A DNA stretch of 37,065 bases. Source: Gemmatimonadota bacterium. GTDB taxonomy: Bacteria > Gemmatimonadota > Gemmatimonadetes > Longimicrobiales > Gaopeijiaceae. The position numbers were made by a program, and so were the translations under genes. A model generated the notes under the pieces. That model made no database searches. It was not told where the DNA came from and saw only the letters and a program-made list of their open reading frames with translations. The stretch spans positions 1 to 37,065 of the forward strand of contig JAJDXM010000039.1 of NCBI GenBank assembly GCA_022823225.1, in the 5' to 3' direction. Below are positions 979 to 5,567 of this stretch, in pieces; the stretch's first letter is position 1; each line of letters starts with the position of its first letter.

Positions 979-1940
979 GGGGGGGAATCGCTTGTGTGAA
1001 AGTCGAAAATGGCGCGCTGCAGCGCCCGGTAAACCATCCCGGGGTCGCCGAGGCGGTGCCGCAGCTCGCGCTCGAGCCCGGCGATCGGATACAGGTTCTG
1101 GGGTGCGCGGTCATCCTTGTGCGGCTCGGAGGCGAATCCGGGAAGAGCGGCGGCGGTCGCGTCCGCAATCCTCCTCACCCTGTCCAGGCCGCTCTCTGTC
1201 CACGCCTCGCAGCGCACGATCCCGGCCCAGGGGTGCCCCTCCGCCTCGGTGAGCCGCATGTACCAGGAAAAGCGGGTCCACGTCGTCTGAATCAGGAAGA
1301 CGGGGGTGCGCTGGCCGGGGCCCAGGCTGGCGACCACTCCGCGAGGGCCCGCGGGAAGGTATTGGACGCGGTGGCTCTTCACGTAGCCGATTGCACCGGC
1401 GATCCGTTGCCGGCCCCGCAAGGGTCCGTCCAGCACGACCAGGGAATCGGGGTCGGGGGCCGGCGCCCCCACCGCGGCAACCTCAACCTCCAGCTGGCCC
1501 ATCCGCTCCTGCAGACCGTTCATCAGCTGCTGAACGTCGTCCTCGGCAACGGGGCTGGCACGGAAGGTACCCGAGCGGGTGACCAGATCCTGTATGCCGG
1601 CCAGACCGAAGAACCCCCGGCCAACCTTCAGTGACCGGATCACCGCCTTCCGCTCGCAACTGACCACTCCCGCCGCGTACGACGCGCAGATCCCCGGACG
1701 GGCGTCTCCATCCTCGCCGGTTATCCACACCCTCGCCTCGACGCGGCGAACGCCGTCGACGAAGTCCACACGGGCAGGCACCCACGCCCCCGGGCGGGGA
1801 TCGAGTGGGCGCCACTCGCCATCCGGCACCTCCGATCCTGCGTCGACCTGGGCCGCCGGAGCCTCCTCCGGGTCGCCCTCAACCGCCGTGCCGTATTCTG
1901 GTGACCAGCCTTCGATCGCGAGTCCCTGTACGCGGCGCAT
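975..1940 (-). CDS. nurA: NurA-family nuclease (HerA partner)
   Basis: NurA nucleases have an RNase H-like fold, form a dimer on a HerA hexamer and degrade DNA 5' strands during end resection. This 321-residue protein shows the expected elements: an acidic FVDG motif (Asp62) opening the first strand, a second LVVLDGPL motif (Asp171), GYVKSH shortly after, and a C-terminal YPIAGLERELRHRLGD helix like the conserved NurA end. The ATG at 1940 shares one base with the sbcC stop (TGATG). The frame stays open far upstream through sbcC, but that part is a shadow. Family assignment rests on these motifs and on herA, sbcD and sbcC in the same operon; overall NurA similarity is usually low, so a profile search would be the formal test. 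Confidence 0.8.
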   Translation of the reverse strand: MRRVQGLAIEGWSPEYGTAVEGDPEEAPAAQVDAGSEVPDGEWRPLDPRPGAWVPARVDFVDGVRRVEARVWITGEDGDARPGICASYAAGVVSCERKAVIRSLKVGRGFFGLAGIQDLVTRSGTFRASPVAEDDVQQLMNGLQERMGQLEVEVAAVGAPAPDPDSLVVLDGPLRGRQRIAGAIGYVKSHRVQYLPAGPRGVVASLGPGQRTPVFLIQTTWTRFSWYMRLTEAEGHPWAGIVRCEAWTESGLDRVRRIADATAAALPGFASEPHKDDRAPQNLYPIAGLERELRHRLGDPGMVYRALQRAIFDFHTSDSPP

Positions 1941-4345
1941 CAGATCTCCACCCGTTCCACCGATGAGGAATTCCCGACCTTCTTCACCCGGTACTGCACC
2001 GGTATGCGGTTCGCCAGCTCCGAGACGTGCGTGACCAGCCCGACCATCCGTTCGGTACCCAGCTGGTCGATGCTGGCGGCAACGACATCGAGCGTCTCGG
2101 GGTCGAGCGCGCCGAATCCCTCGTCGAGGAAGAGCGCCTCCAACCGGGCGCCACCACTCGACGCCAGACCGGCCACCTGCTCCGCCAGCGAGAGCGCGAG
2201 CGCCAGCGAGGCGAGGAAGGTCTCGCCGCCCGAGAGCGTCCGTGCCGAGCGCCGCTCGTCGGCGTTGTGGTGGTCGATGACGAGGAATTCGTTGCGGGGG
2301 TCCAGGTCCAGCGAGTAGTGCCCGCTGGAGAGTTCCTTCAGCCTGGCCGACCCTCCGGCCACCAGCCACTCCAGGATTCGGTTCTGCATCCAGCGGCCAA
2401 AACCGGTTGCACTCAAGTGACTGCCCAATGTCTTGGCAACAAATGACTTGTGACGTCTTTGTTCGAGCGACTCCTCGACTTCTTCCCTTGCTTCGGCCTG
2501 CTCCCTCAGGAGCCGCAGACTGGTCCTCGCCTCTCCCAGCGCCTCGGCGCACAGGGTGGCCGGATCGTCCCCCGGGGCCGGATCGAGGCCGCGCGAACGG
2601 CAGAGATCGCCCAGCCTGGACCGTATGCCCGCTTCCTCGGTTGCGGCGGCGTCGCGTTCGTTGGCCGCGGCCTCCCGGGCTGCGCTCTGCTCGCCCGCAC
2701 TTTGTTCGGCCCACGAACAAAGTGTCCGCCACGACGCGGAGAGATCATTGTGCTCGAAGCTCGGTGGCCCGAGTTCGGCGACCTTATCGCGCCGGTCGCG
2801 GAAATCGTCCCATGCGCTGCGCCGCCGCACTTCAAGGGATTCCAGCGCTTCGCGTGCGAGCCGATGGTCCCTCCGGGCGCCGGTCTCGGCCTGGCGCGCC
2901 CGCTGCAACGCCGCGTCGGCCTCGCCGATCGCGACGAGTTGCGCGGCGGTCTCCTCGGGCGAAGGGACCCCTTCGAGCGATTTGCGCAGATCGACGACTG
3001 ACTTTGTTCGCTCGTCGAACAAAGTCCTCAGCTTGCCGTGCCTGAGGGACTGGTGTTCCCGTTCCGCACGGGCACGCCGGAAGGCCGATTCCGCGTCCCG
3101 CCTGGCGGCGTCCGCCTCTTCGAGTCCCCGCGGGGCTCCGCGGTCCGGCAACCTGCCGACCTCCTGAAGGCACACGGGACACTCCTCGCCTTCCCTGAGA
3201 TGCCGGGCGATGTCGGCCGCGCCGTGCTCAAGGCGAAGCGCCTCAAACGACTCGCTCGCCGCTGCCAGATCACGGCTGGCCGCATCCTCCACATCGCGGG
3301 CGGCCGCGACCGCCGCTTCCGCCCGCTCCAACTTTGTGGTCAGCTCGGCCAGCTCCGTCTCCAGATCGGCCAGCGACTCCCGCCGCTGCCGGACCGCCAC
3401 CAGCCGGGACCTTTCGGGAAGCGCGTCGCGCGCGTCACTGGCAGCTTCGCGTGCGGCTACGGCCTGTTCGAGGGACTCGGTCGCAACTCGCCGGGCCCGC
3501 TCCGCACGCCCCAACTCCTCGGCTAGCACCCCCACCCCTTTGGGGGGCCGAACCTCACCGAGCAGCTCCAGGAGGCGTTTCGCCGCAGCCAGCCTGGCTT
3601 GCGCTTCCCTTGCCGCCTCCGCCAACTCCGTGAGCCGGGGGACCGCCTCCCGGATCCTCTCACGAAGCGCCCGCAGCGCGGAGACCCGCGCCTCCGCCCC
3701 TGCGATCGCCTCCGCCGTCGCGCCGCCCAGGTCCGTTTCCAGCCGCTGCAGCAGCGTCCCGGCAACGCTCTCCTGCTCCCGATGGAGCTGGTTCGCCCGC
3801 TGGCGGAGCCGTTCGTACAAGCCCAGGCCCAGCAGCCGCACAAGCAGCTCCTGGCGCTGACGCGGCTTGGCCCGCAGGAAGGTCGCGAAATCGCCCTGCG
3901 GCAGCACCACGCACTTGGTGAAGTGGTCGAGGCCGAGGCCGATGACATCGTTCTCAACCTGCGCGGTGACCTCATCCGCGGTTCGCGCCAGCGTGCGGGA
4001 CGCGCCGCCGTTCGCCCGCTCCTCCAGTGCGGCCTCCTTCGTCGAACCGCCGCCGGAAGGGCTGCGGCGAACCACCCGAACCGCGGTGTACTCCTTCCCG
4101 CCCACCTCGAAGTCGAGCCGCACCCTTCCCTGCACCATCCCCTGGCTGACCACGGGCGCGACCAGGTTGCGGTTGTCGTAGCGCGGCACCGATCCGTAGA
4201 GCGCGAAGACCATCGCGTCGATCAGGCTGGACTTCCCCGACCCGGTGGCTCCCGTCAAGACGAACAGGTCCGTGTCCTCGAAGCTCACCAGGGTGCGCTC
4301 GCGGAACGATGTGAAGCCGTCGAGTTCGAGCCTAAGCGGGCGCAT
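1940..4345 (-). CDS. sbcC: SbcC/Rad50-type SMC ATPase
   Basis: This is the ATPase subunit of the Mre11-Rad50 (SbcCD) complex, which tethers and processes DNA ends and hairpins. It has 801 residues, within the Rad50 range and shorter than E. coli SbcC. Seen in order: Walker A GATGSGKS (32-39), a long charged coiled coil, a zinc hook CPVC (Cys389, Cys392), a second coiled-coil arm, the ABC signature LSGGE (704-708) and Walker B LFLDEGFGALD (Asp741, Glu742). The ATG at 4345 is chosen because GGAGGA lies five bases upstream and the protein then begins with the typical MRPLRLELDGF. It overlaps the end of sbcD by 14 bases. Two palindromes (2698-2724, 3000-3026) lie in the second coiled-coil arm and are read in different frames. 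Confidence 0.93.
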   Translation of the reverse strand: MRPLRLELDGFTSFRERTLVSFEDTDLFVLTGATGSGKSSLIDAMVFALYGSVPRYDNRNLVAPVVSQGMVQGRVRLDFEVGGKEYTAVRVVRRSPSGGGSTKEAALEERANGGASRTLARTADEVTAQVENDVIGLGLDHFTKCVVLPQGDFATFLRAKPRQRQELLVRLLGLGLYERLRQRANQLHREQESVAGTLLQRLETDLGGATAEAIAGAEARVSALRALRERIREAVPRLTELAEAAREAQARLAAAKRLLELLGEVRPPKGVGVLAEELGRAERARRVATESLEQAVAAREAASDARDALPERSRLVAVRQRRESLADLETELAELTTKLERAEAAVAAARDVEDAASRDLAAASESFEALRLEHGAADIARHLREGEECPVCLQEVGRLPDRGAPRGLEEADAARRDAESAFRRARAEREHQSLRHGKLRTLFDERTKSVVDLRKSLEGVPSPEETAAQLVAIGEADAALQRARQAETGARRDHRLAREALESLEVRRRSAWDDFRDRRDKVAELGPPSFEHNDLSASWRTLCSWAEQSAGEQSAAREAAANERDAAATEEAGIRSRLGDLCRSRGLDPAPGDDPATLCAEALGEARTSLRLLREQAEAREEVEESLEQRRHKSFVAKTLGSHLSATGFGRWMQNRILEWLVAGGSARLKELSSGHYSLDLDPRNEFLVIDHHNADERRSARTLSGGETFLASLALALSLAEQVAGLASSGGARLEALFLDEGFGALDPETLDVVAASIDQLGTERMVGLVTHVSELANRIPVQYRVKKVGNSSSVERVEI
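2698..2724. repeat. palindrome copy 1, inside sbcC
   Basis: Perfect 11-base arms CACTTTGTTCG (2698-2708) and CGAACAAAGTG (2714-2724) surround a 5-base loop, GCCCA. It shares 10-base arms and loop length with the copies at 3000 and 5227. Within sbcC it is read as TLCSWAEQSA. It is AT-rich compared with the surrounding gene. Confidence 0.85.
3000..3026. repeat. palindrome copy 2, inside sbcC
   Basis: Perfect 11-base arms GACTTTGTTCG (3000-3010) and CGAACAAAGTC (3016-3026) surround a 5-base loop, CTCGT. The arm core equals that of copies 1 and 3 while the loop differs. Here the gene reads it in another frame, giving TLFDERTKS, so protein-level conservation cannot explain the match. Confidence 0.85.
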
Positions 4346-5567
4346 GGGCTTCCTCCGCTGCGCTCGCCCGCTCGTCGGCGGGCACATCCAGGTCGTGCAG
4401 CGGCCCCCGTTCCCCGCCGGGCGCGTAGTGCTCCTCCAGGAGCTCGTCAAAGAGTTCCGCCAAATCGTCGTCCTCGACCTCGCGCTCCTTCAGGTACCTG
4501 CGGAAGAGTGCGCCCGGATCGCCGCGCAGGGTGGCGGGGTCGACTGAATCGGGTTTGGCGTCGTCGCTCGCGGGGCCCTCGACGATGACGTCCACGGCGT
4601 GTGGGAACATCTCGCGCACGCTCTCGGCCAGCCCGGGCGACGGACGCTCCTCCACGATGACGCGCAGGTAGTCGTCGCCGGTTGTCCCGGCCAGGGCCGA
4701 GATTTCGTGAGCGCGGCCCCTGACCGTGCGCAGCGCGCGACCGGCCGAGATCGGAGCGCGCCGAACGCGGGCCGGCGTTCCCGCCTCCGCGTCGACGATC
4801 AGGACGCAGTGCTCGTCGTGGGTCTCGCCGAAGTCCATCGCGAAGGGCGAGCCTGCGTACCAGATCGGACACCTTCCCCCGATCCGCTGAGGCTTGTGGA
4901 TGTGCCCGAGGGCCACATAGTGGGCCGATTCCGGGAAGATGTCCGCCGGGACGTAGTAGTCGAAGATGTGGGCGCGGCGCTCACCGCCGCCCGTCGCCGC
5001 GCCCACCACCGTCAGGTGGGCCACCGCGAGGTTGACCGTGTCTGCCGAGAACTCCTCGCACAGCGCCCCCGCGATCCGCCGGCACCTGTCGGAGTATTCC
5101 TTCTGGTGATCGTCGGGGTCGCTGCCCATGAGCGCCTCCGCCTTGACGATCCCCCGCTTGGACTGGAAGGGAAAGAGAGCGATGCACGCGGTCTCGCCGG
5201 ATTCCGTGGTGTGGCGCATAACTCCACCTTTGTTCGGTGCGCGAACAAAGGCCGCGGTGGTGATGTTGGCCAGCCTCAGCAGCGGACCGAGGGCGTCCAG
5301 CCGCCGCGGGTGGTCGTGGTTGCCGGCAATGACGACCACCTGAGCGCCGGTGCTTGCCAGCCGCAGCAGTGCGTTGTAGACGATTTCCTCCGATTCCGGG
5401 CTCGGGACCGCACGGTCGAACTGGTCGCCGGCAACCAGCACGAGGTCCACCGCCTCCTCTTCGGCTATGGCGACGATCTCTTCGAGGGCAGCGCGGTGTT
5501 CGTCGGCCCTGCTGCGGCCCCGGAGCGTCCTGCCGACGTGCCAATCGGCGGTGTGGAGGACCTTCAC
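4332..5567 (-). CDS. sbcD: SbcD/Mre11-type exonuclease
   Basis: This is the metallophosphoesterase nuclease subunit of the SbcCD (Mre11-Rad50) complex, 411 residues, normal for the family. The five phosphoesterase motifs are all visible: ADWHVG (Asp8, His10), AGDQFD (Asp48), AGNHDH (Asn83, His84), AHLT and GHIHKPQ. The C-terminal part (about 290-411) is the capping and Rad50-binding region, ending in an acidic stretch. The start is GTG and overlaps the herA stop by four bases (GTGA); the end overlaps sbcC by 14 bases. These overlaps argue for translational coupling. A palindrome at 5227-5251 falls between motifs III and IV and encodes AFVRAPNKGG. Confidence 0.94.
   Translation of the reverse strand: MKVLHTADWHVGRTLRGRSRADEHRAALEEIVAIAEEEAVDLVLVAGDQFDRAVPSPESEEIVYNALLRLASTGAQVVVIAGNHDHPRRLDALGPLLRLANITTAAFVRAPNKGGVMRHTTESGETACIALFPFQSKRGIVKAEALMGSDPDDHQKEYSDRCRRIAGALCEEFSADTVNLAVAHLTVVGAATGGGERRAHIFDYYVPADIFPESAHYVALGHIHKPQRIGGRCPIWYAGSPFAMDFGETHDEHCVLIVDAEAGTPARVRRAPISAGRALRTVRGRAHEISALAGTTGDDYLRVIVEERPSPGLAESVREMFPHAVDVIVEGPASDDAKPDSVDPATLRGDPGALFRRYLKEREVEDDDLAELFDELLEEHYAPGGERGPLHDLDVPADERASAAEEAHAPA
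4351..4356 (-). promoter_or_regulatory. ribosome binding site of sbcC
   Basis: GGAGGA on the minus strand lies five bases before the ATG at 4345. It decides this start over in-frame codons further upstream, which would only add sequence read out of frame from sbcD. Confidence 0.7.
5227..5251. repeat. palindrome copy 3, inside sbcD
   Basis: Perfect 10-base arms CCTTTGTTCG (5227-5236) and CGAACAAAGG (5242-5251) surround a 5-base loop, GTGCG. The geometry is the same as in copies 1 and 2 in sbcC, but the gene reads it in the third possible frame. Confidence 0.85.

Follow-up and report, generated by a model that had tools for sequence, protein, structure and literature searches.

A 23-base palindrome, CTTTGTTCG-N5-CGAACAAAG, occurs in three exact copies within sbcC and sbcD, the genes of the SbcCD nuclease, on a contig of a Gemmatimonadota bacterium (GenBank assembly GCA_022823225.1, contig JAJDXM010000039.1, positions 1 to 37,065; this whole stretch is referred to as the window). 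Based on its position at a beta-glucan locus of the same genome, its co-occurrence with the gene for a ROK-family protein and the half-site that it has in common with the site of the ROK protein RokB, we consider the palindrome to be probably the operator of the ROK repressor of that locus, and the sbcC and sbcD copies to be intragenic operators stemming from a clade-specific expansion. A regulator site had been one of the options raised in an earlier note on the window, and the finding that the palindrome flanks a beta-glucan locus encoding a ROK protein, with both co-occurring across genomes, lends that option indirect support. Throughout, the genome under study (4.19 Mb in 97 contigs, the window being contig C88) is called G000; other G-numbers denote its relatives, L-numbers loci or stretches, and C-numbers contigs.

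Three exact palindromes lie within sbcC and sbcD

Both genes are on the minus strand of the window: sbcC (1940-4345) encodes the SMC-like ATPase of SbcCD (Pfam AAA_23 9e-20, SbcC_Walker_B 3e-10) and sbcD (4332-5567) its calcineurin-like phosphoesterase (Metallophos 2e-14, SbcD_C 4e-5). The 23 bases match exactly at 2700-2722 and 3002-3024 in sbcC and at 5228-5250 in sbcD, and the stems reach 10-11 bp once adjoining complementary bases are counted, in accord with the coordinates given in the earlier note. Palindrome 1 (2699-2723) reads A-CTTTGTTCG-GCCCA-CGAACAAAG-T and encodes the peptide LCSWAEQ in codon phase 0, counted, as for the others, on the coding (minus) strand; palindrome 2 (3001-3025) reads A-CTTTGTTCG-CTCGT-CGAACAAAG-T in phase 1 (peptide TLFDERTKS), and palindrome 3 (5228-5250) reads CTTTGTTCG-GTGCG-CGAACAAAG in phase 2 (peptide FVRAPNK). 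The earlier note was therefore right that three palindromes of the same geometry, with arms of about 10 bases and five-base loops that differ in sequence, are each read in a different codon frame.

Such sites are not readily produced by composition or by codon usage. No palindrome arose in 100 dinucleotide-preserving shuffles, even with up to three mismatches allowed, and in 300 synonymous-codon shuffles of sbcC and sbcD, which kept the proteins unchanged, the best site always had at least one mismatch, whereas all three sites of the actual genes are perfect. All three copies are mid-gene and not at a promoter, so that the term intragenic operator is used here as a claim on binding, not on promoter repression.

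The palindrome is a discrete class of sites in the genome

Nine exact copies were found in G000, every one with a loop of five bases, and since the same nine sites were recovered when the loop was free to span 2-12 bases, the loop length is fixed at five. Sites with 0, 1, 2 and 3 mismatches number 9, 4, 5 and 1 (18 in all at up to two mismatches), whereas base composition predicts 8e-6, 6e-4, 0.018 and 0.35; the reversed-pattern control yielded none at two mismatches and one at three in G000. Because the output of a random process would climb steeply with mismatch number, the sites form a discrete class, and their frequency, which the earlier note had asked to be compared with composition, lies far above that expectation and speaks in favour of a motif. 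The 10-base half-site ACTTTGTTCG is present at ten places per strand, and all 20 listed occurrences fall within full or near-full palindromes.

Two of the nine exact sites are the pair at the glucan locus, one lies just upstream of a DUF5522/diphthamide-synthase-like gene, and six are intragenic (two in sbcC and one each in sbcD, purH, a kynureninase-like gene and a methyltransferase gene). Near-sites are carried by genes for an M20 peptidase, an FAD-binding dehydrogenase subunit, a gamma-glutamyltranspeptidase, a GH3/beta-lactamase fusion, a MerR-TipAS regulator and others, and pheT is also listed among the genes carrying sites. On L321 (2-3937; G000:C42), a 1312-codon open frame with GH3 N-terminal and beta-lactamase-type domains contains a conserved near-palindrome.

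Paired sites flank a beta-glucan locus that encodes a ROK protein

In genomes with two sites, both are usually on the same contig, separated by about 10-18 kb (61 kb in G022), and the loop of one is the exact or near-exact reverse complement of the other's. In the cases examined, which include many relatives, these paired sites stand on either side of a locus for a symporter, SusE/Big_2-type surface proteins, a ROK protein, enzymes of families GH16 and GH3, an MFS sugar transporter and a GH2-like protein of 1,000-1,100 amino acids, with one site before each of two oppositely oriented gene blocks. The ROK gene is located between the paired sites in G000 (G000:C61:44302-45465), G001, G006, G012, G021, G030 and others. 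In the five-species clade described below, the loop of the glucan-locus sites has the form G-N3-C, which extends the symmetry, and this is so in none of the exact intragenic sites of G000; the difference may reflect one of affinity between true operators and intragenic sites.

The association between the palindrome and the ROK protein is maintained across genomes. Among 59 relatives, 18 have both the motif and the ROK orthologue and 39 have neither, with the motif alone in one (G011) and the ROK orthologue alone in one (G049) (Fisher p 5e-13). A scan of 84,980 species genomes found the motif in 106 stretches, where about 4 would be expected for 18 fixed bases in 257 Gb at equal base frequencies. 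These stretches are mostly from Gemmatimonadota, but Ignavibacteria, Zixibacteria/GN15 and others are also represented, and the sites in other phyla are often intergenic, beside GH2-like, Big_2, GH16, GH20 or MFS genes. ROK proteins with an N-terminal winged helix-turn-helix (HTH) are the family encoded most often in the neighbourhood of the site, within 8 kb of it in about 21 of the 106 stretches.

By its domain content, the candidate protein is placed in the ROK family (PF00480 plus an N-terminal winged HTH): PF00480 scores 3e-57 in the G000 protein, together with a weak MarR_2 match below the curated cut-off, and 8e-56 in the L177 protein, with MarR_2/HTH_24 near the cut-off. An HTH regular expression run over the loci gave no match, but it was too strict, as it also missed the LacI gene of L192. 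The recognition helix, RSRST(I/A)SE, hardly differs between genomes with two sites and those with many, so the expansion was not accompanied by an obvious change in specificity. Binding of the palindrome by the predicted ROK repressor is what we infer from these data, with the RokB half-site in support. A LacI-type regulator was considered and rejected, as L192 alone has a LacI gene and no homologue was found at the other loci. In that stretch, from Ignavibacteriaceae, the LacI-family gene (2774-3820) lies about 750 bp from the palindrome, and the fetched sequence has no ROK gene.

The sites have multiplied in one clade

The exact motif is present in 16 of 23 genomes of the genus. When sites with up to two mismatches were counted in 12 motif genomes, many were found only in G000, G005, G008, G012 and G021 (18, 7, 9, 15 and 17, respectively); G011 has three and the remaining six have two each. 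In FastTree trees, G000, G005, G012 and G021 group together on purH, and G000, G008, G012 and G021 on the methyltransferase, in both cases with support 1.00. By these trees, the five genomes are one clade of Palauibacter-like Gemmatimonadota, in which the palindrome has expanded from 2 to 7-18 sites, mostly within unrelated genes. Related records in public collections are metagenome genomes of Gemmatimonadota, Candidatus Palauibacter among them, whose order is known from marine samples, sponges and corals (PMC10469786).

In sbcC, sbcD and the methyltransferase gene, the sites replaced existing bases and were not inserted, since aligning the codons of these genes with same-genus orthologues reveals no gap at the sites; purH is uninformative on this point because its site sits in a length-variable linker. 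Four species of one clade have a perfect methyltransferase site, and the same columns contain 7-12 mismatches in 14 same-genus orthologues, the peptide being DFVREANKV in the former and DFVERAGEL in the latter.

Once present, the arms have changed little. None of the 18 arm columns varies in purH, the methyltransferase, the kynureninase-like gene or either glucan-locus site (three to five species), nor in sbcC site 2 (two species), while around conserved arms 21-66% of 58 flank columns and 1-5 of the 5 loop columns vary. Where the amino acid is unchanged, 140 of 141 arm codons are identical, compared with 75% in the flanks, although the arm figure is inflated because the sites had been chosen at up to two mismatches. 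The conservation argument therefore rests on the purH, methyltransferase and sbcCD sets, for which orthologues were collected by protein search regardless of the site. Many sites occupy the same codons in 3-5 species, and there is also turnover of sites between species, sbcC site 1 being an example. We interpret the invariance of the arms amid varying flanks and loops as support for a constraint that acts on the DNA; the statement of the earlier note that the nucleic acid and not the protein is constrained agrees with the unchanged arm codons.

In the sbcCD orthologues, palindrome 1 has 1 mismatch in G011 and 8 in G021, palindrome 2 is perfect in G021 and has 2 mismatches in G011, and palindrome 3 has 1 mismatch in G021 and 8-10 in others; orthologue alignment showed the motif to be absent from the sbcCD genes of G007, G010, G013, G017 and G038.

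Other features of the window and of motif-bearing loci

A lone half-site, CTTTGTTCG, lies on the plus strand within sbcC at 2457-2465 and has no partner arm. A dispersed repeat of about 140 bases occupies positions 1-140 of the window and has copies of 78-95% identity at numerous further loci of the genus (L312, L308, L199, L004, L136 and more); it looks like an intergenic repeat family distinct from the palindromes. Eight viral contigs (L280-L287) carry the exact palindrome, each in one large open reading frame of similar size and with varying loops; the only one of these frames tested, L281 9877-11460, encodes a terminase large subunit.

A proposed mechanism and its weak points

We suggest that the ancestral state consisted of two operators, one before each gene block of the glucan locus, at which repression would be lifted by a glucan-derived sugar. 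In the clade of G000, G005, G008, G012 and G021, further operators would then have arisen by base substitution in unrelated genes and been kept. At sbcCD, repressor dimers would most likely bind within the transcribed region and either slow transcription as a roadblock or bring together, in a loop, sites that are separated by 302 bp and 2.2 kb. Either arrangement would tie sbcCD expression to the sugar state. More tentatively, it is conceivable that a local ROK sugar repressor has in this clade become a genome-wide intragenic binding system, built by substitution despite amino-acid changes (ERAGEL to REANKV in the methyltransferase) and kept either to link the genes concerned, those for SbcCD and for the metabolism of purines and tryptophan included, with the carbohydrate state or to act as a buffer for the repressor.

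Several observations weigh against the operator reading. The genes with intragenic sites have no obvious function in common, and the conservation test on sites picked at up to two mismatches is biased by that selection. The arms of the RokB operator, compared below, are separated by N11 as opposed to N7 here. Within sbcCD, site 1 of sbcC is lost in G021 and the sbcD site is eroded there, so that no single sbcCD site can be indispensable. G049 has a ROK orthologue without an exact site, and G011, in which no ROK protein was hit, nevertheless has an exact site, within dnaE, and carries two near-sites in its sbcC gene. The sbcCD genes of G011 cluster with those of G000 and G021 (support 0.99) and its purH groups elsewhere, and this disagreement suggests that sbcCD and its sites were transferred laterally, which would leave the dnaE site unexplained. 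That site (L033 1501-1523; G011:C58) is an exact palindrome encoding the peptide FVRSPNKV, which resembles the purH site of other species.

Alternative explanations

The strongest alternative, which we regard as a real though somewhat doubtful possibility, is that the intragenic sites, including those of sbcCD, are decoys bound by the ROK protein, which would titrate the repressor and set the induction threshold of the glucan locus without regulating their host genes. The hosts are unrelated in function (purH, pheT, the kynureninase-like gene and those for the M20 peptidase, methyltransferase and gamma-glutamyltranspeptidase), the majority of sites lie at a distance from the start of the gene, not every site is kept from one species to the next (sbcC site 1), and a decoy role is one proposal made for intragenic sites (PMC10294691). 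A decoy, however, needs no fixed position, yet many sites keep the same codons in 3-5 species. That the sites are chance, non-functional binding sites is improbable: most intragenic PhoB sites of E. coli are indeed inert and unconserved (PMC10294691), but there are 9 exact copies here against about 1e-5 expected, no pile-up occurs at three mismatches, and the arms stay constant amid changing flanks and loops.

Being moderately numerous, scattered over functionally unrelated genes and conserved, the palindromes might also be chromosome-organising sites for an architectural protein (parS- or matS-like), or hairpins in its own gene on which SbcCD acts. We think both improbable as well, since most genomes of the genus have no site or just the two of the glucan locus, a distribution at odds with a site essential for segregation, and since sbcCD orthologues elsewhere are without the motif. 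The feedback by SbcCD that the earlier note had offered as speculation was rejected on the grounds that the motif is not tied to sbcCD, as it also occurs in genus genomes in which no close sbcCD orthologue was found.

That the copies work as RNA hairpins in the mRNA, whether in its stability, in attenuation or as an RNase target, is very unlikely. Each sbcCD copy does fold into a stem of 10-11 bp (z about -2), but any DNA palindrome folds as RNA, and the fold is thus no evidence for such a role. By our reading, the mismatches that conserved near-sites show on the coding strand include C-A, U-U and G-A and are thus not regularly of the G-U type, the glucan-locus copies are intergenic and placed like operators before two oppositely oriented blocks, and Rfam gave no match in the window; on these grounds the hairpin was rejected as the principal explanation. 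Several dispersed copies of identical geometry within coding sequence would suit a mobile palindromic element inserting into genes, and a REP-like one was also among the options of the earlier note. This is the least probable reading of all, because the sbcC, sbcD and methyltransferase alignments are free of gaps, the copies have only their arms in common and differ in loops and flanks, and the REP transposase family Y1_Tnp (PF01797) has no match in G000, while control genomes give matches.

Significance and comparison with known systems

Intragenic sites of bacterial regulators are usually taken as noise, on account of their weakness and lack of conservation. The sites described here are countable, strong and symmetric, are conserved between species at silent codon positions and are found in this form in one clade only. 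Since the set is conserved and clade-restricted, with a candidate protein that can be named and close relatives that have no more than the two ancestral sites, it becomes possible to test directly what intragenic operators do. The palindrome also provides a predicted operator for the lineage of ROK repressors at beta-glucan loci of Gemmatimonadota, Ignavibacteria and their neighbours.

REP/BIME palindromes and Rickettsia palindromic elements are likewise dispersed palindromes, some of them inside genes. The sites here differ from both in that they were not inserted, have only their arms conserved and are not accompanied by a REP transposase that we could find. A literature search for the text of the motif returned unrelated matches only, as judged by titles.

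The closest likeness is to RokB of Streptomyces coelicolor, whose inverted repeat at PnovH, TTTGTTC-11X-GAACAAA, was mapped by surface plasmon resonance (PMC4856308). The half-site TTTGTTC/GAACAAA is identical to that of the palindrome here, and the protein family is the same (ROK kinase-like domain with an N-terminal HTH); the five genomic sites of RokB are, in contrast, imperfect, located at promoters and assigned to a different proposed regulon. In the PDB, the homologues of the ROK protein include Mlc/NagC, Lmo0178 and XylR (1z6r, 3bp8, 5f7p/5f7q, 4ija; E 4e-38 to 6e-19), which are homologous over both the HTH and the kinase-like domain and are also repressors of sugar loci. Citing other work, PMC4856308 describes the operators of these repressors as T-rich/A-rich inverted repeats, and for none of the three did we find a report of intragenic operator sets in unrelated genes. 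With the intragenic PhoB sites of E. coli (PMC10294691), finally, the palindromes have in common a motif within genes and far from gene starts, but the PhoB sites are weaker and mostly unconserved, whereas here the arms are perfect and conserved between species.

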